From the NCBI GenBank assembly GCA_016292295.1, contig JADNEJ010000602.1:1-22847 (forward strand): a stretch of 22,847 nt of DNA. Direction: 5' to 3'. Under the pieces are notes generated by a model. That model made no database searches and had not been told where the DNA came from. It was given only the letters and a program-made list of their open reading frames with translations. Of this stretch, positions 601 through 21,148 are shown one piece after another. The DNA comes from Candidatus Thiodictyon intracellulare (lineage in GTDB: Bacteria > Pseudomonadota > Gammaproteobacteria > Chromatiales > Chromatiaceae). The stretch's first letter is position 1. Every line of letters begins with the position of its first letter. The position numbers and the translations under genes were made by a program.

Positions 601-2139
601 TTGACAGTCCCGTCCCCGAGCGTCGCCCAGCCAGCCACGTCCAAGTCGCGAACGCATAAACCCTACGCGGTGATCATCGGCGGCGGCTTCGGCGGCTTGG
701 CGGCGGCGGTCCGGCTCGGGGCGCGCGGCTATCGGGTGACGGTGTTGGAACGCTTGGATGCCCCTGGGGGCCGCGCCTATGTCCACCGCCAGGACGGCTT
801 CAGCTTCGACGCGGGCCCCACCATCATTACGGCCCCTTTCTTGCTGGATGAGCTGTGGGAACTGTGCGGCAAGTGTTTCGCCGATGACGTCGAACTGCGG
901 CGGATGGAGCCCTTCTATCGCATCCGCTTCGACAACGGCGAGCATTTCGACTACAGCGGCGACCCGCAGCGCATCCGTACGGAGATCCTGCGCTTCGCCC
1001 CAGCCGACCTGGAGGGCTACGAGCGCTTCTTGAAGAAGAGCGAGGCGATCTTTCGCGTGGGCTTCGAGCAACTCGCCCACAAACCCTTCAGTTCTTTCAT
1101 GGATATGGTGCGAATCATCCCGCCAATGCTGAAGCTCCAAAGCTACCGCAGCGTCTACAGCCTGGTATCTTCCTATATCAAGGACTCGCGGATGCGGACC
1201 ATCCTGTCCTTCCACCCACTCCTGATCGGCGGCAACCCCTTCACGGTCACCTCGATCTATGCCCTGATTTCCTTCCTCGAACGAGAGTGGGGTGTGCATT
1301 CGACCATGGGCGGGACGGGCGCCATTGTGACGGGCTTGGTGGGTCTGATCGAGGGCCAGGGCAATCAGGTCCGCTGCGGCGTCGAGGTGGCGGAGATCCT
1401 GACCACCGAGCGCACCGCCCGCGGGGTGCGGCTGACGAACGGGGAGGAGATCGCCGCCGACATCGTGGTCTCCGATGCGGACCCGGCCTGGACCTACAAG
1501 CACCTCCTGCCCTCGATCAAGCGTCGATGCTGGCCCGATTGGCGCATCAAACACTCTCAGTACTCCAACGGACTCTTTGTCTGGTACTTCGGGACTCGCT
1601 GCCAGCACCCGGACGTGTTGCACCACACCATCCTCATGGGCCCACGCTACCGGGAACTGATCAAGGACATCTTCGGCCACAAGGTGCTGGCGAAGGACTT
1701 CAGCCTCTACTTGCATCGCCCCACCGCCACCGATCCGTCCGTGGCACCGCCCGGGTGCGATACCTTCTACGCCCTGGCCCCGGTCCCGCACCTGGACAGC
1801 GGCACGGACTGGAGGACCCAGGCCGAGCCCTACCGCCAAGCGGTCTGCGCCTATCTGGAGCAGAGCCTGCTGCCGGGGCTGTCCGAGAACCTGGTCACCT
1901 CCAAGGTGATGACTCCGCTCGATTTCAAACACCGGCTCCTGTCTTACAAGGGCGCCGGCTTCAGCCTGGAGCCCGTGCTCTGGCAAAGCGCCTGGTTCCG
2001 TCCCCACAATGCCAGCGAGGAGGTGCGTCACCTCTATCTGGTGGGAGCCGGGACCCATCCCGGCGCCGGTGTACCCGGCGTCATTTCATCCGCCCGTGTA
2101 CTCGATACAGTGGTGCCCGATGCGACAGCCTTCGCTTAG
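601..2139 (+). CDS. crtI: phytoene desaturase CrtI
   Basis: FAD-dependent carotenoid desaturase that introduces the double bonds turning phytoene into neurosporene or lycopene at the membrane. The 512-residue product has the N-terminal dinucleotide-binding fold (GGGFGGLAAAVRLGARGYRVTVLE, about residues 27-50), the following GGRA motif, a DAGPTII segment, and the C-terminal GAGTHPGAGVPGVISSA signature of bacterial CrtI enzymes, at normal family length. The start is TTG at 601: no ATG lies upstream of the FAD motif in frame, and this start gives about 26 residues before the fold. Only a weak AGAG box at 587-590 precedes it. The 3' end overlaps crtB by 20 bases. Control is probably by the PpsR-type site just upstream. 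A CrtD-type desaturase is the alternative; the match to CrtI and the pairing with crtB argue against it. Confidence 0.93.
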   Translation: MTVPSPSVAQPATSKSRTHKPYAVIIGGGFGGLAAAVRLGARGYRVTVLERLDAPGGRAYVHRQDGFSFDAGPTIITAPFLLDELWELCGKCFADDVELRRMEPFYRIRFDNGEHFDYSGDPQRIRTEILRFAPADLEGYERFLKKSEAIFRVGFEQLAHKPFSSFMDMVRIIPPMLKLQSYRSVYSLVSSYIKDSRMRTILSFHPLLIGGNPFTVTSIYALISFLEREWGVHSTMGGTGAIVTGLVGLIEGQGNQVRCGVEVAEILTTERTARGVRLTNGEEIAADIVVSDADPAWTYKHLLPSIKRRCWPDWRIKHSQYSNGLFVWYFGTRCQHPDVLHHTILMGPRYRELIKDIFGHKVLAKDFSLYLHRPTATDPSVAPPGCDTFYALAPVPHLDSGTDWRTQAEPYRQAVCAYLEQSLLPGLSENLVTSKVMTPLDFKHRLLSYKGAGFSLEPVLWQSAWFRPHNASEEVRHLYLVGAGTHPGAGVPGVISSARVLDTVVPDATAFA

Positions 2140-3271
2140 CCCTCGCTTCTCAACCCCCGCCGACCAGGCCGCCTGCCGCGACCTGCTCTGCGGGGGCTCA
2201 CGCTCCTTTTATACCGCGTCCCTGCTGCTGCCGCGACGGGTCTATGAGCCGGCCACGGCCCTCTATGCCTTCTGCCGCATTGCGGACGACGAGATCGATC
2301 TCGCCGACCACCCCCATGACGCAGTGATTGCGCTGCGGCAGCGCCTCGATGCGGTCTACGCCGGCCGTCCTATGCAGATTTCCGCCGACCGCGCACTCAC
2401 CGACGTGGTCCAACAGTTTGCCGTTCCCCGTACTCTATTGGATGCCCTGATCGAAGGTTTTACGTGGGATGCGGAGGGCCGCCGTTACGAGGACATCTCG
2501 TCGGTCTATGCCTATTCCGCCCGCGTCGCCGCCACCGTGGGGGCCATGATGACGCTCCTGATGGGCGTGCGCGACCCGGACCTGATCGCCCGCGCCTGTG
2601 ACCTGGGTGTGGCCATGCAACTGTCGAACATCGCCCGGGACGTGGGGGAAGACGCGGCCAACGCCCGCCTTTACCTGCCGCGCCAGTGGCTGCGCGAAGA
2701 GGGGCTGGACGCGGATGCCTGGCTGGCGCAGCCGGTCTGGAGCCCGGCCTTGGGGCGCGTGGTCTCGCGCCTGCTCGAGGCCGCCGAGGGACTGTATGCA
2801 CGTGCTGATAAAGGGATCGGCGGCCTGCCACTGCGCTGCCGGGCCGGGATCGGGGCCGCGCGTCACCTCTATGCCGAGATCGGTCATGAGGTCGGTCGTC
2901 GCGGTTGGGATTCCGTGCGCCAAAGGGCCGTCGTTTCTCCCCGCCGCAAGGCGCAGTTGCTGCCACGGGTGCTGGCCGCCGCCTTTCCTCGCCGGACTAC
3001 CTCCCTGCCGCCGCTTGCGGAGACCCTGTTTCTGGTCGAGGCGGTAAGGGCCCAGCCTCTATCGCAGCTACTCGGGTCGCAGTCGATCAAGCCCGTGTCC
3101 ATCAATCCCCCCACCGTTGCAGCCAATACGACGAAAAGCGAGAACCGCGTGTCGCGTGTCTTGGATTTGTTCGAGCGGCTGGAGGAGCGCGACCGTCAGC
3201 GCAGACAACAAGCCGCCTGGCAGCGCCCAGGCCTGTCCGCAATGTCGCCTCAGGCCGTGTCCGTCGATTAG
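2120..3271 (+). CDS. crtB: phytoene synthase CrtB
   Basis: Condenses two geranylgeranyl diphosphates to phytoene, the first committed carotenoid step. The 383-residue product shows the squalene/phytoene synthase signatures: an early SFY-ASLLLP segment, the first Asp-rich motif DDEID (residues 56-60), YSARVAATVG, and the second Asp-rich motif in NIARDVGEDAANARLYLP (D174, D178). ATG at 2120 lies inside the end of crtI, so translation is probably coupled. The frame is open further upstream, but that part only mirrors crtI. The last 50-60 residues (after SQLLGSQSIKPVS) are a polar, Arg-rich extension beyond the usual enzyme end and may be disordered. Confidence 0.94.
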   Translation: MRQPSLSPRFSTPADQAACRDLLCGGSRSFYTASLLLPRRVYEPATALYAFCRIADDEIDLADHPHDAVIALRQRLDAVYAGRPMQISADRALTDVVQQFAVPRTLLDALIEGFTWDAEGRRYEDISSVYAYSARVAATVGAMMTLLMGVRDPDLIARACDLGVAMQLSNIARDVGEDAANARLYLPRQWLREEGLDADAWLAQPVWSPALGRVVSRLLEAAEGLYARADKGIGGLPLRCRAGIGAARHLYAEIGHEVGRRGWDSVRQRAVVSPRRKAQLLPRVLAAAFPRRTTSLPPLAETLFLVEAVRAQPLSQLLGSQSIKPVSINPPTVAANTTKSENRVSRVLDLFERLEERDRQRRQQAAWQRPGLSAMSPQAVSVD

Positions 3272-3283
3272 GGTGTCGGCGGA

Positions 3284-3449
3284 ATGCTGGGGAATAACCT
3301 GTCAGACCTGATCGAACTGATGTTCGTGGTCGGTCTGCTGCTCTGGTTCTGGAAGTCCCAGACTTCGCCGCCGGCCCGGAGCGATGGACCAAGGCAAGGG
3401 CGGTGTCTCGGCCCCCGGCAACGGCGAGGCGCCCCCACCCAAGACCTAA
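3284..3449 (+). pseudogene. possible small one-helix membrane protein, frameshifted
   Basis: Twelve bases after crtB an ATG opens a frame reading MLGNNLSDLIELMFVVGLLLWFWKSQ, a short amphipathic lead followed by one hydrophobic helix. That frame then becomes low-complexity and runs on, antisense to the RuBisCO-like gene. A shift of one base near 3360 gives a basic, Pro/Gly-rich tail ending ...GNGEAPPPKT with TAA at 3447-3449, just before the hairpin at 3454. This looks like a 50-60 residue tail-anchored protein with a frameshift, either real or a sequencing error. No family recognised. It could also be chance; the ribosome binding site is poor. Confidence 0.35.
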
Positions 3450-3453
3450 GGGA

Positions 3454-3489
3454 AAGCCCCCTGTACCAGCAGGGCCGCTGCGGGGGCTT
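3454..3489. terminator. hairpin between convergent crtB and rlp
   Basis: The arms AAGCCCCC (3454-3461) and GGGGGCTT (3482-3489) pair perfectly, and the 20-base loop holds an inner stem CAGC/GCTG (3467-3470 with 3477-3480). It sits between two convergent transcription units, just past the rlp stop codon at 3496, and would form on either strand. There is no long T-tract, so a bidirectional terminator or 3'-end protecting structure is inferred rather than proven. Confidence 0.5.
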
Positions 3490-3495
3490 GAGGAC

Positions 3496-4800
3496 TCAGC
3501 CTTTGCCGCCGAAGGCGTCGATGGCTGCCCGCAATTCCTGGTGGGTCTGCGCGTACTGCTCGATCGTAACGCCGGCGACGACCGCCTCCCAGGCCTGGCG
3601 CAGGCTCGCCGCTCCGCCGGTTGGCCCCATCGGGTGGCCAAAGACTCCCCGCCCTGGGATGAATCCGAAATCGACGCTGCCGACCCGGTGGTAGACCCCC
3701 TCCAGCGTGCCCGCCCAGTCGCTCCCGCCGGGAATGGGCAGACTGCGGGCGATAGACCCCATGGGGGCCAGACAGGCGGCGACCCCGTCCAAGACCTCTG
3801 ACTCGTCCATCCCCATGCGCGCCCCGAAGCCGGGCATGACGATGGCATCCAGCCCCACCAGACGCTGGAGCTTGATGAGCACCCGCGTGTGAATTCCATA
3901 CCCGGGGAGTCGGCTCAGGGCCGCGATCATCGGGAAGTGCCCGACCAAGGGCACGCCGGTGTGCCGACTCAACATTCGCACGGCACTCAACCCAACCGGC
4001 AGGGCGTTGATCAGGAGCATATTGGCACCGTTCGCCACACTGCGATCGTGCAGATCGATCAGCCGATCGACTTCATCGGTGATGTTGGCCATGTAGCCCT
4101 TGGCGACCCCGGTTACCGCCTCGGCCCGCCGCCGCGCTTCTCCCAACAGCGCCGAGCGACGCTCTAAGTGACACCAGGGTGCGTCCGCCAGCATCTCATC
4201 GTCCTTGGCGACGTCAAGTCCGCCAAGCAAACCCTGATAGCCCAACTCCGCGAAGGGCTCCGCCGCGAGGCCGATATTGGGCTTGATCACCCCGAAGAAG
4301 ATGGGGCGGCCGTGGACGCCGAGCAGATTGCGGATGCCCTCGATACCAAATCGGGGACCGGCAAAGGCGCTGAGGAAGCCGTCCGGCATCCGCAGGTCCA
4401 GGAGTTTGATCACTGGGATACCCGGCACGAAGAACACCCCCTCGCCGGCAACCGCCGAGAGCAGGTTGGGTATGCGCGGGCCAAAATTGCCATGGGGATG
4501 GGCAATGGTTACACGACAGACGGAAACCTCGCCGGACCCGCAGTCCCGACTGGCCGCGTAGGTCGGGGTTGGACGCTGACCATCCACGCGCAGTTCAAGA
4601 ACCTTTGCCCCGAAGCGCGGCCGGTAGTCCTCGTCGATCCCGATGCGATGCCACTGGGCGGTGGATTGCTCGCTGCACAGGTGAGCAGCGGCGGTACGGG
4701 GGTCCCCGTAGCACTCAAAGGCGTAGTCGAGCTCGATGTACTGGGCAAGGTCCAAGTCATCGCGGCAGCAGAAAAAGCCTGGTAAGTCCGCCGGGGTCAT
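3496..4800 (-). CDS. rlp: RuBisCO-like protein (form IV)
   Basis: A 434-residue relative of the RuBisCO large subunit. Recognisable segments are SEQSTAQW (43-50, form I region ESSTGTW), IKPNIGL (172-178), [10 protein letters not shown] (193-202, which keeps the carbamate lysine K199 and metal ligands D201 and E202), GHFPMIA and GGSDWAGTL. Key carboxylase residues are changed: the second lysine of KPKLG is Asn175, the HRAMH segment is GHFPM, and the loop-6 lysine is missing ([10 protein letters not shown]). It should therefore not fix CO2 and instead act as an enolase or isomerase, as in other form IV proteins. It most resembles the photosynthesis-associated branch known from Chlorobium and Allochromatium. 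ATG at 4800 overlaps the yjbQ stop as ATGA, which decides the start over an upstream TTG at 4875. Substrate unknown. Confidence 0.88.
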
Positions 4801-5222
4801 TGGCCGAGAAACTGCAAATGGACCTGACGTTGCGCCCGCGGGCCGTCCAGTTCCACGAAAAAGACCGATTGCCAACCACCCAGCAAAAGTTTCCCGTCCG
4901 CGAAGGGAACGGTTTCTGTGGCGTTCATCAGAAGCCCCATCAAATGGGAATGGGCGTTGTTGCGGCCGTCAACCGGCGTGCGGTTGTGCCGATAGTCGCC
5001 GTCGCGCGCGACCAACCGCGTAAGAAAATCCAGCATGTCTTGCTGCAGCTGCGGCTCATGCTCATTGAGATTGATATGGGCGGTGGTGTGGGGCGACATC
5101 AGCGTCAACAGGCCGTCACGCAGACCGACCGACTGAAACAGGCCATCCACGTCCGCAGTGATATCGAGCAACTGGATCGGCTCGGTGGTCGCAAGCCTGA
5201 GCGTGCGTGTCATGACCTTCAT
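4797..5222 (-). CDS. yjbQ: YjbQ/UPF0047 family protein
   Basis: The 141-residue product has the family hallmarks in order: [15 protein letters not shown], a D-D...YRHNRTP segment, [41 protein letters not shown], and a C-terminal beta strand. These include the conserved histidines and the LG-WQ...E-DGPR block. YjbQ of E. coli has weak thiamine-phosphate synthase activity; the physiological role is not settled. ATG at 5222 follows the idi stop by one base (TAGCATG), and ATG at 5213 is an equally possible start. The gene overlaps rlp by four bases, so idi, yjbQ and rlp look co-translated. Confidence 0.85.
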
Positions 5223-5223
5223 G

Positions 5224-5808
5224 CTACTCGGCCGCGGCCGCATCCAAAACCCGCTCGACGATCAGTTGGAACCAGGGCGTAAAGAGATGCGGAGACTTCA
5301 CCAACCCCCGCCTCACCGCACCCACCGGGGTCCAGCGCCAGGCCCCGACTTCAGCCGGGTCGGGGCGCGGATCATCCATATAACGCCCCCGGAACACATG
5401 CAAATACTCGTGTTCTATCAGTCGGGACTCCGGGTCCTCTGCTCGATACACCAGTTGCATCTGCTCGGTCAGGGGAGTCTGGAACCCCAGTTCCTCCCCA
5501 AGACGGCGCACTGCCGCCCTTGCGGTGGCCTCCCCGGGGCGCGGATGCCCGCAGCAACTGTTTGACCAACGGCCGGCGAAGTGGTATTTCGCATCGGCGC
5601 GCCGCTGGAGCAACACCTCCTCCTTCGCATTGAAGACAAAGATAGAGAAGGCTCGATGCAGTTGACCAAGGCGGTGTACGTTGAGCTTGTCCCCATCTCC
5701 CTGGGAACGGTCATCGGCGTCGACCAGAATCACACGCTCCAAAGCGTCCTGCTGCCCGGCAGGCCCGTTACCATCGCTTATCGCATGCCGGACAATCGCT
5801 GCCTTCAA
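5224..5808 (-). CDS. idi: isopentenyl-diphosphate isomerase, type I
   Basis: Interconverts isopentenyl and dimethylallyl diphosphate, the C5 units for carotenoids and the bacteriochlorophyll tail. The 194-residue product shows LHRAFSIFVFN, QRRADAKYHFAGRWSNSCCGHP (catalytic Cys and the metal-binding CCGHP), a Nudix-like RLGEELGF helix, and EHEYLHVFRG with the catalytic Glu; W-HLFTPW lies near the end. The chosen start is TTG at 5808 because GGAGA lies eight bases upstream; the TTG at 5832 would place that box inside the gene. It lies downstream of the puf terminator and is first of the idi-yjbQ-rlp unit. No strong promoter is visible in the 68 bases before it, so read-through from puf is possible. 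Confidence 0.92.
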   Translation of the reverse strand: MKAAIVRHAISDGNGPAGQQDALERVILVDADDRSQGDGDKLNVHRLGQLHRAFSIFVFNAKEEVLLQRRADAKYHFAGRWSNSCCGHPRPGEATARAAVRRLGEELGFQTPLTEQMQLVYRAEDPESRLIEHEYLHVFRGRYMDDPRPDPAEVGAWRWTPVGAVRRGLVKSPHLFTPWFQLIVERVLDAAAAE

Positions 5809-5876
5809 GTTGTCATCTCCAAAATAGCACAAAGCCGAGCGGCCGAACTGACAAGGGAAACGGTTTCACAAAAAAA

Positions 5877-5903
5877 CCGGAGCCCCGCAAGAAGGCGCTC
5901 CGG
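5877..5903 (-). terminator. rho-independent terminator of the puf operon
   Basis: On the minus strand CCGGAGC (5903-5897) pairs with GCTCCGG (5883-5877) around a 13-base loop whose two outer pairs can extend the stem past one mismatch. The 3' arm is followed by seven T residues (5876-5870). It lies about 90 bases after the second pufA and before idi. Confidence 0.85.
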
Positions 5904-5994
5904 ATTTCAATTCGTCTGCACTGAGACCCCTAAACGGGACGGGTCGGCCGGATCGTCGCCGAGCCTGGCCGAGCGGTTCCGCGAGTCTCGTCCG

Positions 5995-6246
5995 CTACTT
6001 CTTGATCACCGCCGCGGGAGCCGGAGCTGCCACCGGGGCCGAGACCTGCGACTTGACCACCACCGGCCGGGAGATCGGCGGCTTGGCGTAGGCAGTATCG
6101 AGCCAATTGAAGTTGGCGGTGCTGAGCAGGATCAGATGGATGAGCACGGCGAGTACGGCCAGGAAGCCGAAAAGCGCGATCAGCGCGCGGCGCGGATCGA
6201 ACAGCTTCCAAATCTTGTACAGGTCTGATTGAATGGATGCGGCCAT
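5995..6246 (-). CDS. pufA2: LH1 antenna alpha subunit, second copy
   Basis: The 83-residue core light-harvesting alpha polypeptide. It shows the N-terminal [17 protein letters not shown] segment, a single membrane helix with the bacteriochlorophyll-ligating His in [12 protein letters not shown], and the periplasmic NFNWLDTAY motif. About 30 Pro/Ala/Val-rich residues follow, longer than the usual short tail. The first 53 or so residues are nearly identical to those of the alpha subunit encoded at 9763-10077, while the tails differ. AGGAG lies just upstream of the ATG. Its beta partner is encoded immediately before it, and it is the last gene of the operon. Confidence 0.95.
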
Positions 6247-6291
6247 TGGTTTAGCTCCTAATCAGTTGGATTAACGATGACGTGCTGTAAG

Positions 6292-6441
6292 CTACAGCCA
6301 AGGCCGCCACGCCCAAGCCAGGATATGGGCAACCACCGCAACACCAACGAACGCAGTGAAGCTCGTAATGAAGACCCCGTGAAACTCCTTCGCCTCGTCG
6401 TCCGTCAGCCCCGAACAACCAATGCTCTTGTCTTCAGCCAT
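6292..6441 (-). CDS. pufB2: LH1 antenna beta subunit, second copy
   Basis: The 49-residue core antenna beta polypeptide: [20 protein letters not shown], then one membrane helix with the BChl-binding His in [16 protein letters not shown]. The [11 protein letters not shown] region supplies the conserved outer His that is expected in beta subunits. Compared with the copy at 10123-10269 the helix is identical; the N-terminus is one residue longer and the Gln before GVF is His here. GGAG lies about ten bases before the ATG. It is separated from pufA2 by 45 bases that are also similar to the pufB1-pufA1 spacer, so the whole pair is a duplication. Confidence 0.94.
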
Positions 6442-17255: not shown

Positions 17256-19712
17256 ATGAACATCGGGCACACAGACCCTCCTGAAGCCGACGACGCCCGG
17301 GAGACCGATCGCTGGACGGTCGTCGACCTCATCGACCTGGAACATTACCTGGGCGCCGACGAGCAGGTGCTGCACGAAGGCACTGCGGCCCGTAACGCAT
17401 TGACGGAGCGGGACCGTACCCTCTATTTGGACCGGATTGCCCCGGCCGTCGTAACCACCCTGCCCCATTCGACCCTACATCGGCGTTTGAGCCTGCGGCG
17501 GTGGCTGCGCGAACGCCGCGCCGCGGAACTCCCGCAACGGCGTCTGTTGCTGCCCGGACGCACCTTCGCCCAGGCGCAGCGACTCACCGCCTTGGGGCTG
17601 GCGGTGCTCGGGTTTCTGATCGGCATCGGCGCGGCCTCCGCCCTGCTGAGCTACGACGGTCATCGCCCGATCAACGTTGCCATCTACATCTTTCTATTGG
17701 TTTTAATACAATTTTTGTTGGTAGGTGGGGCCACGGTAGCCTGGTTGGTGCGCCGCGCGCGGCCGGTTGACCGAGCGGTCCAGGATCTGAGCCTGCTCGG
17801 ACGCCTGATCCGACCCCTGGTGATCCGCGTGAGCGGCTGGCTGCTGCACCAGCATCTCGCGGCCACACGCCAGGAGGTCAACGACCGCACCGCGACCCAA
17901 GTCGGACGCCTGCGCTCCCAATACGCGCTCTATGGAGCCGTTTCCTTCCTGCCGATGCTGATCCCGGCGCAGGTCTTCGGCGTCGTCTTCAACCTGAGTG
18001 TGATCCTGACTACGATCGGGCTAGAGTGGTTCACGGACCTGGCCTTCGGCTGGCAAACCGCGCTGGATCTGAGCCCGCAGTTCATCCATGGCTTGGCCCG
18101 CGTCGTTGCCACCCCCTGGGGCTGGCTGTTCGGTGAGGGAGTCGGCTATCCATCACTGGAGCAGGTCGCGGGCTCGCGTATCCTACTCAAGGACCCGCTG
18201 TCACTGCTCGACGCCGGTGATCTGCGCTCCTGGCGCTGGTTCCTGGTCCTGGCGGTCTGCACCTATGGCCTCCTGCCGCGACTCCTGTTGCTCGGTGCCT
18301 CGCTCCTGACCCAGCGGCACCTGCTGGAGCGGCTGCCCTTCACACAGGGCCGCACCCAGGCCCTCTATGCCCGTCTGTTGACACCCACGGTCGAGATCGC
18401 CACCCACGGCAGCGGGCATGGCACCGCGATGCCGATCCCTGCACCCATCACCCACCAGGGGCCACTGGCTCACCCCATCGCCGCGCCCCCAACCCATCCC
18501 CCGACGACCCCGCGCCCGACGGAGCAGGTGACGGTGACGAGGCCCTGGGGCGAGGCGCGCCAGGGTAAGCCCGGGCTGATTGCGGACCGTGGAGGGCCGG
18601 CACCCAAGCGTCCAGACCCCGAACCAACGACGCCCCCGCCCCCCGCAACGACGCCCTTGGACGCGGCGGCCACGCGGCCCGCCGCTGCCGCACCACCAGC
18701 GGCGGCCGAGCTGGAAACTAAGGTCGAAACCGAGCATCAAGGTCCGCCAAGCGAGGTCCTGCCGGCGCCTAGGGCCGAAGGGCTGCTTCGTCCGCAAGCT
18801 GTGGCTGCCGTCGGCGGCGGGCCCCCATCCGACATCCGACCGAAACCGGCGCCCCAAAGCGCGCCTAAACCGGCAGCAATTCGCCCACCGGGTGATAAGA
18901 TGCAGCCGCAACCCGCCCTGGGGCCGGAACCGAGGCCAGCACCCGCACCAGAACTGGCGCCGCATCCGACCCCGCCGCCGGAACTGGCACCGAGACCGGC
19001 GGCTCAATCGGCACCGGTGACCCAGCACGAACCGGCGTCGGAACCGAAACCAGGACTGCAATCGCCTGCGGAATCTGAACCGGCGCAGCAAGCCTGGGTT
19101 GCACCTGGGTCACCGCCCTCACCCGGAGCCCCGCCGCAACCGATCGCCGCGCCGCAAGCCCGGTCTGCACCGGAGCCGGAACCGACGGTTGAGCCCGAGC
19201 TCGAGCCTACGGCAGCGCCCTTGGAGCCCCGTGGGACTGAGGTGCCAGGCGGCGTCGCCGCCGACGCCTGCCTGGTGCTGGTCCAACTCGATGTGGACGA
19301 GCTGATTGACGACGCGCAGCGCCCTCGCGTGGCAGAACTGGTCAAAACCCTCACCGGATGGCGGGTCGCCGCGTCCGCGTCCTTCGGATCCGGCAATGCC
19401 ATGACTGTCGGGGTGGTGAACTGGGTCGAGGGCCAACGCTGGCAGGCCCCGCCGGGACGGGTCGCGGTCATCATGGACGGCTCCCAACCGCCGATCACAG
19501 AGAACCTGCGCTTCCTGCGCGAGTTGCGCGCCGCCGCGGGCACCCAGGCCCAGGTGCTGCTGGCTCTGGTCGGCGACCCCCAGGACGACGACCCCCTGCC
19601 GCCGGTGCGCGCCTTCGACTTCACCGATTGGCAGCGCAAGATCGCCCAATTGGCCGACCCCTATCTGCGGCTGGACATGCTGACCCCCGAGGGCGGTGAC
19701 AGAGAGACATGA
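17256..19712 (+). CDS. DUF2868 membrane protein with long Pro/Ala-rich linker
   Basis: An 818-residue protein. Residues 1-105 are soluble and charged (WTVVDLIDLEHYLGADE... RDRTLYLDRI). Then come membrane helices near 109-130 (LTALGLAVLGFLIGIGAASALL), 141-168, 228-262 and 329-353, the DUF2868 core. Residues about 390-665 are a very Pro/Ala/Glu-rich, probably disordered linker. Residues about 668-810 are a folded C-terminal domain (ADACLVLVQLDVDELID..., VAVIMDGSQPP..., AQVLLALVGDP..., FDFTDWQRKIAQLADPYL) of a kind normally seen next to the partner GTPase. DUF2868 genes are regularly paired with a DUF3482 GTPase, as here with an ATGA overlap. Function unknown. The ribosome binding site at 17256 is weak, so the start is uncertain. 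Confidence 0.85.
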   Translation: MNIGHTDPPEADDARETDRWTVVDLIDLEHYLGADEQVLHEGTAARNALTERDRTLYLDRIAPAVVTTLPHSTLHRRLSLRRWLRERRAAELPQRRLLLPGRTFAQAQRLTALGLAVLGFLIGIGAASALLSYDGHRPINVAIYIFLLVLIQFLLVGGATVAWLVRRARPVDRAVQDLSLLGRLIRPLVIRVSGWLLHQHLAATRQEVNDRTATQVGRLRSQYALYGAVSFLPMLIPAQVFGVVFNLSVILTTIGLEWFTDLAFGWQTALDLSPQFIHGLARVVATPWGWLFGEGVGYPSLEQVAGSRILLKDPLSLLDAGDLRSWRWFLVLAVCTYGLLPRLLLLGASLLTQRHLLERLPFTQGRTQALYARLLTPTVEIATHGSGHGTAMPIPAPITHQGPLAHPIAAPPTHPPTTPRPTEQVTVTRPWGEARQGKPGLIADRGGPAPKRPDPEPTTPPPPATTPLDAAATRPAAAAPPAAAELETKVETEHQGPPSEVLPAPRAEGLLRPQAVAAVGGGPPSDIRPKPAPQSAPKPAAIRPPGDKMQPQPALGPEPRPAPAPELAPHPTPPPELAPRPAAQSAPVTQHEPASEPKPGLQSPAESEPAQQAWVAPGSPPSPGAPPQPIAAPQARSAPEPEPTVEPELEPTAAPLEPRGTEVPGGVAADACLVLVQLDVDELIDDAQRPRVAELVKTLTGWRVAASASFGSGNAMTVGVVNWVEGQRWQAPPGRVAVIMDGSQPPITENLRFLRELRAAAGTQAQVLLALVGDPQDDDPLPPVRAFDFTDWQRKIAQLADPYLRLDMLTPEGGDRET

Positions 19713-21148
19713 TGGCGCTTGAGATCCCACGCTTGGCGATTATGGGGCACCCCAACGCGGGCAAGTCCTCCGTGGTCGCAACCCTCACCGAGAACGACCG
19801 TATTGCCATCGACCAGCGGGCCGGTACCACCACCGAGTCCGATGTCTATCCGGTTATCATCGACGGCCAAACGGTCATCGAGTTCATCGACACCCCGGGC
19901 TTCCAGAACCCCAGCGCGATCCTGGAGTGGTTCCAGGCCCATGGAACCCAGTCGGACCTCGCCGGGGCCTTCGTCCAGGCCCATCGCGCCGATCCGCTGT
20001 TTGCCCATGACTGCGCTCTGCTGGAACCGGTCGGGGCGGGGGCAGGCATCATCCTGGTCGTGGACGGCTCCAAGCGCATCAAGGAGAAGGACCGCATCGA
20101 GATTGAACTGCTGCGCCTGACCGCGCGCCCGCGGATGGCGATCCTGAACAACCTGACCAAGCAACCCCGTTACATGGAACAGTGGCAGGATGCCCTGAGC
20201 AAGGCCTTCAACTCGGTGCGTGAGTTCAATGCCCATCGCGCCACCTACGCCGAGCGCGTCAAACTCTTGAGCGCGCTGAAAAGCATCGACCAGCGCTGGG
20301 AGCCGCGCCTGGAGCAGACCATCGACGCCTTCGTGCGAGACTGGGAGCGGCGCATCGACCAGGCTGCCATCACCATCCTAGACCTCTTGCGTGAGAGCCT
20401 CTCCTTTCGGTACAGCCAAAGCTTCAAGAACAACAAGCTGGTCTTCAAGAGCGGCCAGGACCGGGCCAAGGAGGCCGTGATGGCCGCCTTCGGGGATGGC
20501 CTGCGGGCCCTGGAGGCCAGGGCCCAGGAGCAGGTCCGCGCCAACTTCCGGCACAACGTCTGGAACCTGGCCCCGGGCTCGATCCTGGACCAGGACCTGC
20601 TGTCCGAGGAGGTCAGCAAGTCACTGGGGATCTCCCGCGGCCAACTCGCGATGGCCGGGATCGCCGCGGGGGCCGCCTCCGGCGCCACCATCGATCTGGC
20701 CACCGCCGGTAATTCTCTGGGGGCGGCGGCCTTTCTGGGGGCCGCCGCCGGGGGCCTGTTGGGATTCATGGGGGGCAATGCGCTGGCCAAGCTCGATATC
20801 GAACAGGCGGCCGGCACTCAGCGCTTCACCGTGGGTCCGGCCACCAACCCCAAGTTCCCGTTCATACTGCTCGACCGCATCATTCTCTATAGCGCCCGGG
20901 CTATGAACTGGGCACACGGCCGCCAGGCCGCCGACGAGGAGGCGCCCGACCGGATACCGGACAAGGAGATCTCGTCCAAGGGCTTCACAGAGTCCCTGAG
21001 CGCATCACAACAGCGCGACTTGGCACGGTTCTTTGCCGCGGCTCGGCGCGGCAAGTCATTTGATCTTGAAGACAGCTGCCGGGAGCTTATCAAAGCGATA
21101 CTGCGCGACGTCGCGCAGGGCCGCATCGACAGCCGGGCCAATCTGTAG
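19709..21148 (+). CDS. DUF3482 family GTPase
   Basis: A 479-residue protein with an N-terminal Era-like GTPase domain: P-loop GHPNAGKS (13-20), the GTTTESD switch I, DTPGF (G3), and a weak G4 (NNLTK in place of NKxD). A long helical region follows (about 170-300). A Gly/Ala-rich hydrophobic stretch at about 312-361 (LAMAGIAAGAASGATIDLATAG...) probably associates with or inserts into the membrane, and a helical C-terminus of about 100 residues ends the protein. The layout recalls membrane-acting GTPases, but the task is unknown. ATG at 19709 overlaps the stop of the DUF2868 gene, implying coupled translation and a two-component membrane complex. Confidence 0.87.
   Translation: MMALEIPRLAIMGHPNAGKSSVVATLTENDRIAIDQRAGTTTESDVYPVIIDGQTVIEFIDTPGFQNPSAILEWFQAHGTQSDLAGAFVQAHRADPLFAHDCALLEPVGAGAGIILVVDGSKRIKEKDRIEIELLRLTARPRMAILNNLTKQPRYMEQWQDALSKAFNSVREFNAHRATYAERVKLLSALKSIDQRWEPRLEQTIDAFVRDWERRIDQAAITILDLLRESLSFRYSQSFKNNKLVFKSGQDRAKEAVMAAFGDGLRALEARAQEQVRANFRHNVWNLAPGSILDQDLLSEEVSKSLGISRGQLAMAGIAAGAASGATIDLATAGNSLGAAAFLGAAAGGLLGFMGGNALAKLDIEQAAGTQRFTVGPATNPKFPFILLDRIILYSARAMNWAHGRQAADEEAPDRIPDKEISSKGFTESLSASQQRDLARFFAAARRGKSFDLEDSCRELIKAILRDVAQGRIDSRANL

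Follow-up and report, generated by a model that had tools for sequence, protein, structure and literature searches.

The genes idi, yjbQ and rlp form a tightly spaced unit on contig JADNEJ010000602.1 of Candidatus Thiodictyon intracellulare (Chromatiaceae; assembly GCA_016292295.1), of which positions 1 to 22,847 were analysed (hereafter the window, i.e., the whole stretch of 22,847 nucleotides). Comparison with relatives of the encoded RuBisCO-like protein (RLP) established that the conserved unit is the pair yjbQ-rlp and that the order idi-yjbQ-rlp is a local arrangement, because idi adjoins the pair in only 32 of 80 relatives, on the 5' side in five and on the 3' side in 27. The pair is very probably real and functional. 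An RLP of the Photo clade and a dedicated YjbQ would thus constitute a two-enzyme metabolic module of anoxygenic phototrophs, to which idi would be a lineage-specific addition in the Chromatiaceae. The three genes of the window are as follows:

5224..5808, minus strand: idi, type 1 isopentenyl-diphosphate delta-isomerase (NF002995 and TIGR02150 over cut-off)
4797..5222, minus strand: yjbQ, Photo subfamily of UPF0047 (PF01894 and TIGR00149 over cut-off)
3496..4800, minus strand: rlp, form IV-Photo RuBisCO-like protein (PF00016 over cut-off)

The product of idi is placed among the type 1 isopentenyl diphosphate isomerases by a TIGR02150 score of 127.9 bits (cut-off 105.8), and that of yjbQ in the YjbQ/UPF0047 family by 109 bits to TIGR00149 (cut-off 67.75) and 122 bits to PF01894 (cut-off 27). 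A single base separates the idi stop (5224) from the yjbQ ATG (5222), and the rlp ATG at 4800 overlaps the yjbQ stop (4797) as ATGA, i.e., by -4 nt; the spacings of +1 and -4 given in the original prediction are thereby confirmed from the open reading frames and the sequence. The idi start that matches the end at 5808 is a TTG behind GGAG, and the frame is open upstream to a TTG at 5832.

Relatives were collected by scanning species genomes with peptide patterns of the window RLP, and the best 80 of 91 confirmed loci, a set that leans to close relatives (the closest RLPs are 83-89% identical to that of the window), were examined. In 67 of these, rlp is preceded by a yjbQ in the same orientation, with a spacing of at most 25 nt in 54, of -4 in seven, and of 428 nt at the maximum. 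The 67 paired loci comprise 30 named Chromatiaceae, nine Gemmatimonadota, nine Nitrobacteraceae, five Ectothiorhodospiraceae, four Rhodoblastaceae, three Acetobacteraceae, and seven others (two Hyphomicrobiaceae, the rest Paracoccaceae, Blastochloridaceae or unplaced). The adjacency is found in several phyla, spanning the Alpha- and Gammaproteobacteria and the Gemmatimonadota, with one locus unplaced. This conservation and the tight spacing rule out a chance gene order. The 13 loci without yjbQ 5' of rlp belong to two Chlorobiaceae, one member of the Desulfobacterales, nine Chloroflexi, and one gammaproteobacterial contig (L085); in L085 the RLP match begins at base 7, and one of the Chloroflexi loci (L111) also lies near a contig edge. 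No YjbQ-RLP fusion was found among the 120 proteins listed of 1421. A scan for third neighbours in alphaproteobacteria, Ectothiorhodospira and Gemmatimonadota, covering 78 of 166 flanking open reading frames in 26 of 28 loci (L046 and L088 omitted), yielded no family in more than three frames among the 25 of 61 families listed, a result that leaves room for single cases. Two loci drew attention in their own right. In Rhodomicrobium udaipurense (L046:4811-8004), dxs lies upstream of yjbQ-rlp, and no such match occurs in the other Rhodomicrobium locus, L057. In a member of the window's own family (L018; G024:C272:690-1988), the RLP match contains one internal TAG, which may reflect an assembly error or decay.

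The original prediction had named conservation of the three-gene order across phototrophs as a check, and such conservation did not hold. The 32 loci with idi beside the pair are those of the 30 named Chromatiaceae and two unplaced Gammaproteobacteria; idi-yjbQ-rlp is confined to three Thiodictyon, Lamprocystis and one Chromatiaceae metagenome-assembled genome (MAG), the 27 others read yjbQ-rlp-idi, and no idi match was found in the flanking DNA examined at the remaining 48 loci. With idi restricted in this way and switching sides, a conserved three-gene module can be dismissed. The order is not unique to the window's genome either, given the five loci that share it, yet it is local to the Chromatiaceae.

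The window RLP is, judged by its matches to solved structures, a member of the Photo clade of form IV, because R. palustris RLP2 (2qyg, 641 bits) and the C. tepidum RLP (1tel/1ykw, 605/603 bits) score far above the next structure (3nwr, 191 bits). The same scores speak against membership of the DeepYkr clade, of which the RLP tree held no sequence. An alignment of the window RLP and its 80 relatives (81 rows), onto which RuBisCO residue numbering and roles were transferred by motif, showed that E60, K175, K201, D203, E204 and H294 (metal-binding/enolisation residues) are invariant in all 81 rows, and that H327 is retained in 74. Loop-6 Lys334 is replaced by Arg and Lys177 by Asn in every row, and the Ser379 site holds Gly in 71 rows and Ala in 10, which excludes a bona fide RuBisCO. 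Since the enolisation residues are retained and K177, K334 and S379 are replaced, the window RLP should be an enolase-type enzyme, predicted to be active, and not a carboxylase.

YjbQ itself is general and only the Photo subfamily is special, because every genome tested (23 of 23) and both controls, E. coli and B. subtilis, carry some YjbQ. Five of the 23, namely Rhodomicrobium, Chromatium okenii, and three Gemmatimonadota, yielded no YjbQ other than the copy linked to rlp. A YjbQ tree was built from the 67 linked and 21 unlinked proteins that gave a usable match, with further copies left out and the window protein not a row. All linked proteins group with two unlinked Chlorobium YjbQs in a single clade (support 100/99), outside of which the 19 other YjbQs fall; the tree has long branches and few columns. 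A smaller alignment gave 50-77% identity to the window YjbQ for 25 members of this subfamily and 30-38% for eight other YjbQs whose genomes carry a Photo or Photo-like RLP; nine columns are invariant across the 34 aligned YjbQs, including H45, H79, H93 and E124. The genera named among the best 120 of 214 database matches (Thiodictyon, Ectothiorhodospira, Thiohalocapsa, Thiorhodovibrio, Halochromatium, Rhodoplanes, Thiocapsa and Chlorobium) are presumably all phototrophs. One Gemmatimonadales locus, L093, which forms a long branch, groups with Ectothiorhodospira in the YjbQ tree and also in the RLP tree (40 rows, of which 38 come from the 80 loci and two from additional Chlorobiaceae), which suggests that yjbQ and rlp were transferred together.

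The link to phototrophy was also seen at the level of whole genomes. Among 55 genomes of Chromatiaceae and other relatives of the window's organism, those that encode a Photo RLP (>570 bits) are exactly those that encode PufM, 16 in all; one of the 16 PufM matches is a fragment, and RLP and PufM lie on different contigs in four. Two genomes with RLP matches of 249-269 bits (G044 and G047) and many lower RuBisCO matches were not counted as Photo RLP in this comparison, and a genome of the window's own genus (G006) is without both proteins. In 148 Gemmatimonadota, RLP (>500 bits) is present in 11 of 31 PufM-positive versus five of 117 PufM-negative genomes (p 1.4e-5, kinship ignored). The five with a Photo RLP and no PufM match are G161, G168, G186, G189 and G260. 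One of them, G189, carries BchE, and at least this one may hence be an incomplete phototroph.

Published work bears directly on the chemistry. The original prediction had proposed a route from a sulfur-containing or sugar phosphate into the isoprenoid pool. In its sulfur version, the RLP would isomerise 5-methylthioribulose-1-P in the methylthioadenosine (MTA)-isoprenoid shunt ending in 1-deoxyxylulose 5-phosphate (DXP), an activity known from the R. rubrum DeepYkr RLP and from R. palustris RLP1 (PMC4958253, PMC5893883). For R. palustris RLP2, the closest solved relative of the window RLP, no kinetic activity on this substrate was detectable, and deletion of rlp2 left MTA metabolism unaffected, the function of RLP2 being left open (PMC5893883). 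An earlier report cited there found slight conversion of 5-methylthioribulose-1-P by RLP2 (PMC5893883), which fits a related native substrate. The window's genome contains one further RuBisCO-family match besides rlp, of 395 bits to PF00016, and this too counts against the sulfur version. The published tests largely dispose of such salvage in the case of RLP2, and the sulfur half of the proposal is hardly credible any longer. The role of the Allochromatium vinosum RLP gene Alvin_2545 has been described as unresolved (PMC3368242, and likewise PMC11267869), and the Gemmatimonas phototrophica RLP has been placed in the Photo clade (PMC7844134). YjbQ goes unmentioned in six RLP papers (PMC7844134, PMC10892978, PMC5893883, PMC4958253, PMC3368242, PMC11267869); no search was aimed at RLP with YjbQ or YjbQ with dxs, so an earlier description is possible. 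In the paper library searched, no literature was found that joins RLP with isopentenyl and bacteriochlorophyll, or LsrF with Chlorobium.

The sugar-phosphate half of the proposal, entry into DXP and isoprenoids, stands as the best lead, because of two gene orders in the Chlorobiaceae, namely yjbQ-dxs in all 41 genomes and the position of the Chlorobium rlp beside a gene for LsrF. Together with a fusion in Chloroflexi, the loci are exemplified by:

L143:7809-10242 and L144:6648-9082: yjbQ-dxs in Chlorobiaceae
L074:4808-10131 and L082:4811-10132: operons of an aldolase/short-chain dehydrogenase (SDR) fusion, LsrF, RLP and SDR in Chlorobiaceae
L103:7446-9284, and also L104-L109 and L112: RpiB-RLP fusions in Chloroflexi MAGs

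The Chlorobiaceae, the family of Chlorobium genome G065, were represented by 41 genomes, each of which encodes a YjbQ at least 64% identical to that of G065. In each, this Photo-type yjbQ lies just 5' of dxs (the gene for DXP synthase, DXS) on the same strand, the matched stretches being 14-621 bp apart; in G088, where dxs is broken across two contigs, the neighbour of yjbQ is its N-terminal piece. The order was also read from the DNA in 30 loci, 29 with the genes within 600 bp and one at 601. The dxs beside yjbQ is the sole full-length dxs, the other DXS-domain matches reaching at most 45 bits, although most exceed the low Pfam cut-off. In addition, 33 of the 41 genomes encode a second YjbQ (31-36% identical), and none of these lies beside dxs (coordinates compared by eye). 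Photo RLP is complete in 36 of the 41 genomes, fragmentary in two and without a match in three.

Adjacency to dxs could also mean that YjbQ supplies thiamine phosphate for DXS and that the RLP is an independent passenger. The NCBI family name for YjbQ, secondary thiamine-phosphate synthase activity, agrees with this, yet the activity itself has been called low and secondary in a paper title, the tightest and widest linkage of yjbQ is to rlp and not to dxs, and the enolisation site of the RLP is intact. The thiamine explanation is accordingly rated very unlikely. YjbQ is also listed as a protein of unknown function, and overexpression of yjbQ in E. coli relieves a pdxB lesion via a route not yet worked out (both PMC7954711).

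The second Chlorobiaceae order, aldolase/SDR fusion-LsrF-RLP-SDR, was found with LsrF 5' and SDR 3' of rlp in 20 of 20 loci inspected and with the fusion in 19, the missing one falling at a contig end. The LsrF assignment is strong on sequence grounds, with 512 bits against the family cut-off of 297 and, among solved structures, 397 bits for LsrF of E. coli. The LsrF family is named for the substrate 3-hydroxy-5-phosphonooxypentane-2,4-dione. Its formula is that of DXP, or equally of 5-deoxyribulose-1-phosphate, oxidised at C4, and phospho-4,5-dihydroxypentane-2,3-dione (phospho-DPD) corresponds to DXP oxidised at C3.

The third pointer comes from RLPs without a YjbQ neighbour. In eight of the nine Chloroflexi loci, an RpiB/LacAB-type isomerase (N-terminal) and the RLP (C-terminal) share one frame of ~610 codons; in the ninth (L111), a stop lies just upstream of the RLP. 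Proteins that combine an RpiB and an RLP domain make up 17 clusters in the protein database. The RpiB part exceeds the RpiB-subfamily cut-off, and its highest-scoring model is that for D-erythrulose-4-phosphate isomerase, which it matches at 196 bits, short of the cut-off of 240. Genes for a sugar-binding regulator, a lactamase-fold hydrolase and two xylose-isomerase-like proteins adjoin the fusion gene, and after the Desulfobacterales RLP comes a triosephosphate isomerase. The Chloroflexi and Desulfobacterales RLPs keep the catalytic residues and have Ala at the Ser379 site where the other 71 rows have Gly, which is why the substrates may be related without being identical.

Such neighbours would also suit a module of sugar-phosphate salvage or repair unrelated to isoprenoids, acting on tetrose or pentose phosphates or under stress, with idi and dxs adjoining it through the clustering of photosynthesis and housekeeping genes. 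Besides the erythrulose-phosphate score of the fusion, with its regulator and xylose-isomerase-like neighbours, and the triosephosphate isomerase, this explanation draws on the lack of an isoprenoid family among the 25 of 61 families listed for alphaproteobacterial and Gemmatimonadota neighbours, and on the C. tepidum RLP mutant, which is described via its stress response and sulfur oxidation (PMC5893883). It accounts less readily for the fact that the RLP-type YjbQ, and not the other YjbQ, lies beside dxs throughout the Chlorobiaceae, or for the finding that, in the Chromatiaceae set, Photo RLP and PufM are confined to precisely the same genomes. Salvage or repair is considered a real possibility, though not a probable one.

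The pair likely works on a C4-C5 ketose phosphate, as judged from the enolisation site and from the links to RpiB, triosephosphate isomerase, LsrF and dxs. The RLP would enolise and isomerise this compound, the likeliest candidates being a 1-deoxy or 5-deoxy pentulose phosphate (e.g., 5-deoxyribulose-1-P, DXP or oxidised DXP), and YjbQ would act on the same compound or the next one. The best single guess, a tentative one that comes close to an even chance but stays below it, is that this compound is one of the DXP circle and either supplies isoprenoid synthesis or draws from it, the RLP-YjbQ module exchanging material with the pool of DXP from which isoprenoid pigments are made.

Several observations weigh against this link to DXP. 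Three Chlorobiaceae genomes (G092, G111 and G115) have yjbQ-dxs and no RLP match, two further ones with yjbQ-dxs hold an RLP fragment only, and yjbQ-dxs in this family may represent one ancestral event. Among the 80 loci, dxs lies beside the pair only in that of R. udaipurense. Close RLPs of Chloroflexi and Desulfobacterales occur without a Photo YjbQ and with the fixed Ala for Gly. LsrF was not found over its cut-off in any of the 55 genomes of Chromatiaceae and relatives (five weak matches of at most ~30 bits), which argues against LsrF as a general partner of the RLP, though the E. coli control was also below cut-off, so that this control is uninformative and the sensitivity of the search unproven. 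An R. palustris strain lacking rlp2 was without defect under the conditions tested and did not show any of the pleiotropic effects of the C. tepidum mutant (PMC5893883). In addition, some photosynthesis clusters are known to include idi and dxs anyway, and idi alone is therefore weak evidence for an isoprenoid role. Lastly, BchE among the 31 PufM-positive Gemmatimonadota occurs in seven of 11 RLP carriers versus seven of 20 others, which is not significant (p 0.15).

The BchE comparison served as a probe of a radical-SAM source in the 148 Gemmatimonadota (BchE counted >200 bits, three fragments included), in which BchE goes with RLP overall, being present in eight of 16 RLP carriers versus seven of 132 non-carriers; with the non-significant split among PufM-positive genomes, it speaks neither for nor against such a source. 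It relates to a more specific proposal, namely that Photo RLP and YjbQ connect to the DXP pool a second time, independently of DXS, by either of two routes. In the first, 5-deoxyribulose-1-P, derived from the radical-SAM by-product 5'-deoxyadenosine, would be isomerised straight to DXP. In the second, proposed for green sulfur bacteria, acetyl-CoA and dihydroxyacetone phosphate would be joined to DXP by LsrF and a dehydrogenase through phospho-3-hydroxypentane-2,4-dione (phospho-HPD), with the RLP as keto-isomerase. A DXS-independent connection of this kind is regarded as unlikely; if true, isoprenoid precursors could be made or recycled without pyruvate and thiamine.

Through these comparisons the Photo RLP gains a steady partner, a dedicated YjbQ subfamily, and an exact match to PufM in one genome set. 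The three chemical pointers (dxs, LsrF and RpiB) agree on small ketose phosphates and narrow the question of the Photo RLP to a few substrates. Should the link to DXP hold, it would be a second connection of the RuBisCO family to isoprenoids and would provide a native role for a YjbQ.

As the original prediction had stated, the unit lies inside a carotenoid/bacteriochlorophyll cluster; family models identified crtB, antenna genes, pufC, pufM, pufL and bchZ around it. Its immediate surroundings are:

2009..3271, plus strand: crtB, phytoene synthase, a neighbour outside the unit and convergent with rlp
5861..5896, minus strand: terminator-like hairpins between the antenna gene and idi
5995-6246: antenna gene, adjoining idi across the terminator-like hairpins

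The crtB product scores 223 bits to SQS_PSY, over cut-off, and 391 bits to NF045921, under its cut-off of 500. The hairpins between the antenna gene and idi are a weak sign, suggesting that idi-yjbQ-rlp is a transcription unit of its own; they are two of six consensus matches in 3200-6400, for which shuffled sequence gives a mean of 3.0. Beyond bchZ, the window holds nitrogenase-like genes, a dehydrogenase and a polyprenyl synthetase, which, by Pfam superfamily matches and position only, should be BchY, BchX, BchC and CrtE. At the edge of the photosynthesis cluster (17256-21148), genes for a DUF2868 protein and a DUF3482 GTPase overlap by 4 nt.

Compared with known systems, the window RLP groups by score with the form IV-Photo RLPs (R. 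palustris RLP2 and the C. tepidum RLP). Its best NCBIfam model, the apionate-pathway RLP decarboxylase OiaX, is matched at 219 bits, against a cut-off of 700. The Photo YjbQ shares with other YjbQ/UPF0047 proteins a TIGR00149 score over cut-off and the invariant columns, yet it forms a separate subfamily coupled to rlp or dxs. The gene 5' of the Chlorobium rlp has the family score of the LsrF of the autoinducer-2 phosphate pathway; unlike in that pathway, it adjoins an RLP and dehydrogenases, no search for other lsr genes having been made. With the DeepYkr RLPs (R. rubrum, and R. palustris RLP1), the Photo RLP would have in common the RuBisCO fold, an isomerisation of the enolisation type and a proposed link to DXP, but it belongs to another clade, and the DeepYkr substrate is not detectably used by RLP2 (PMC5893883).

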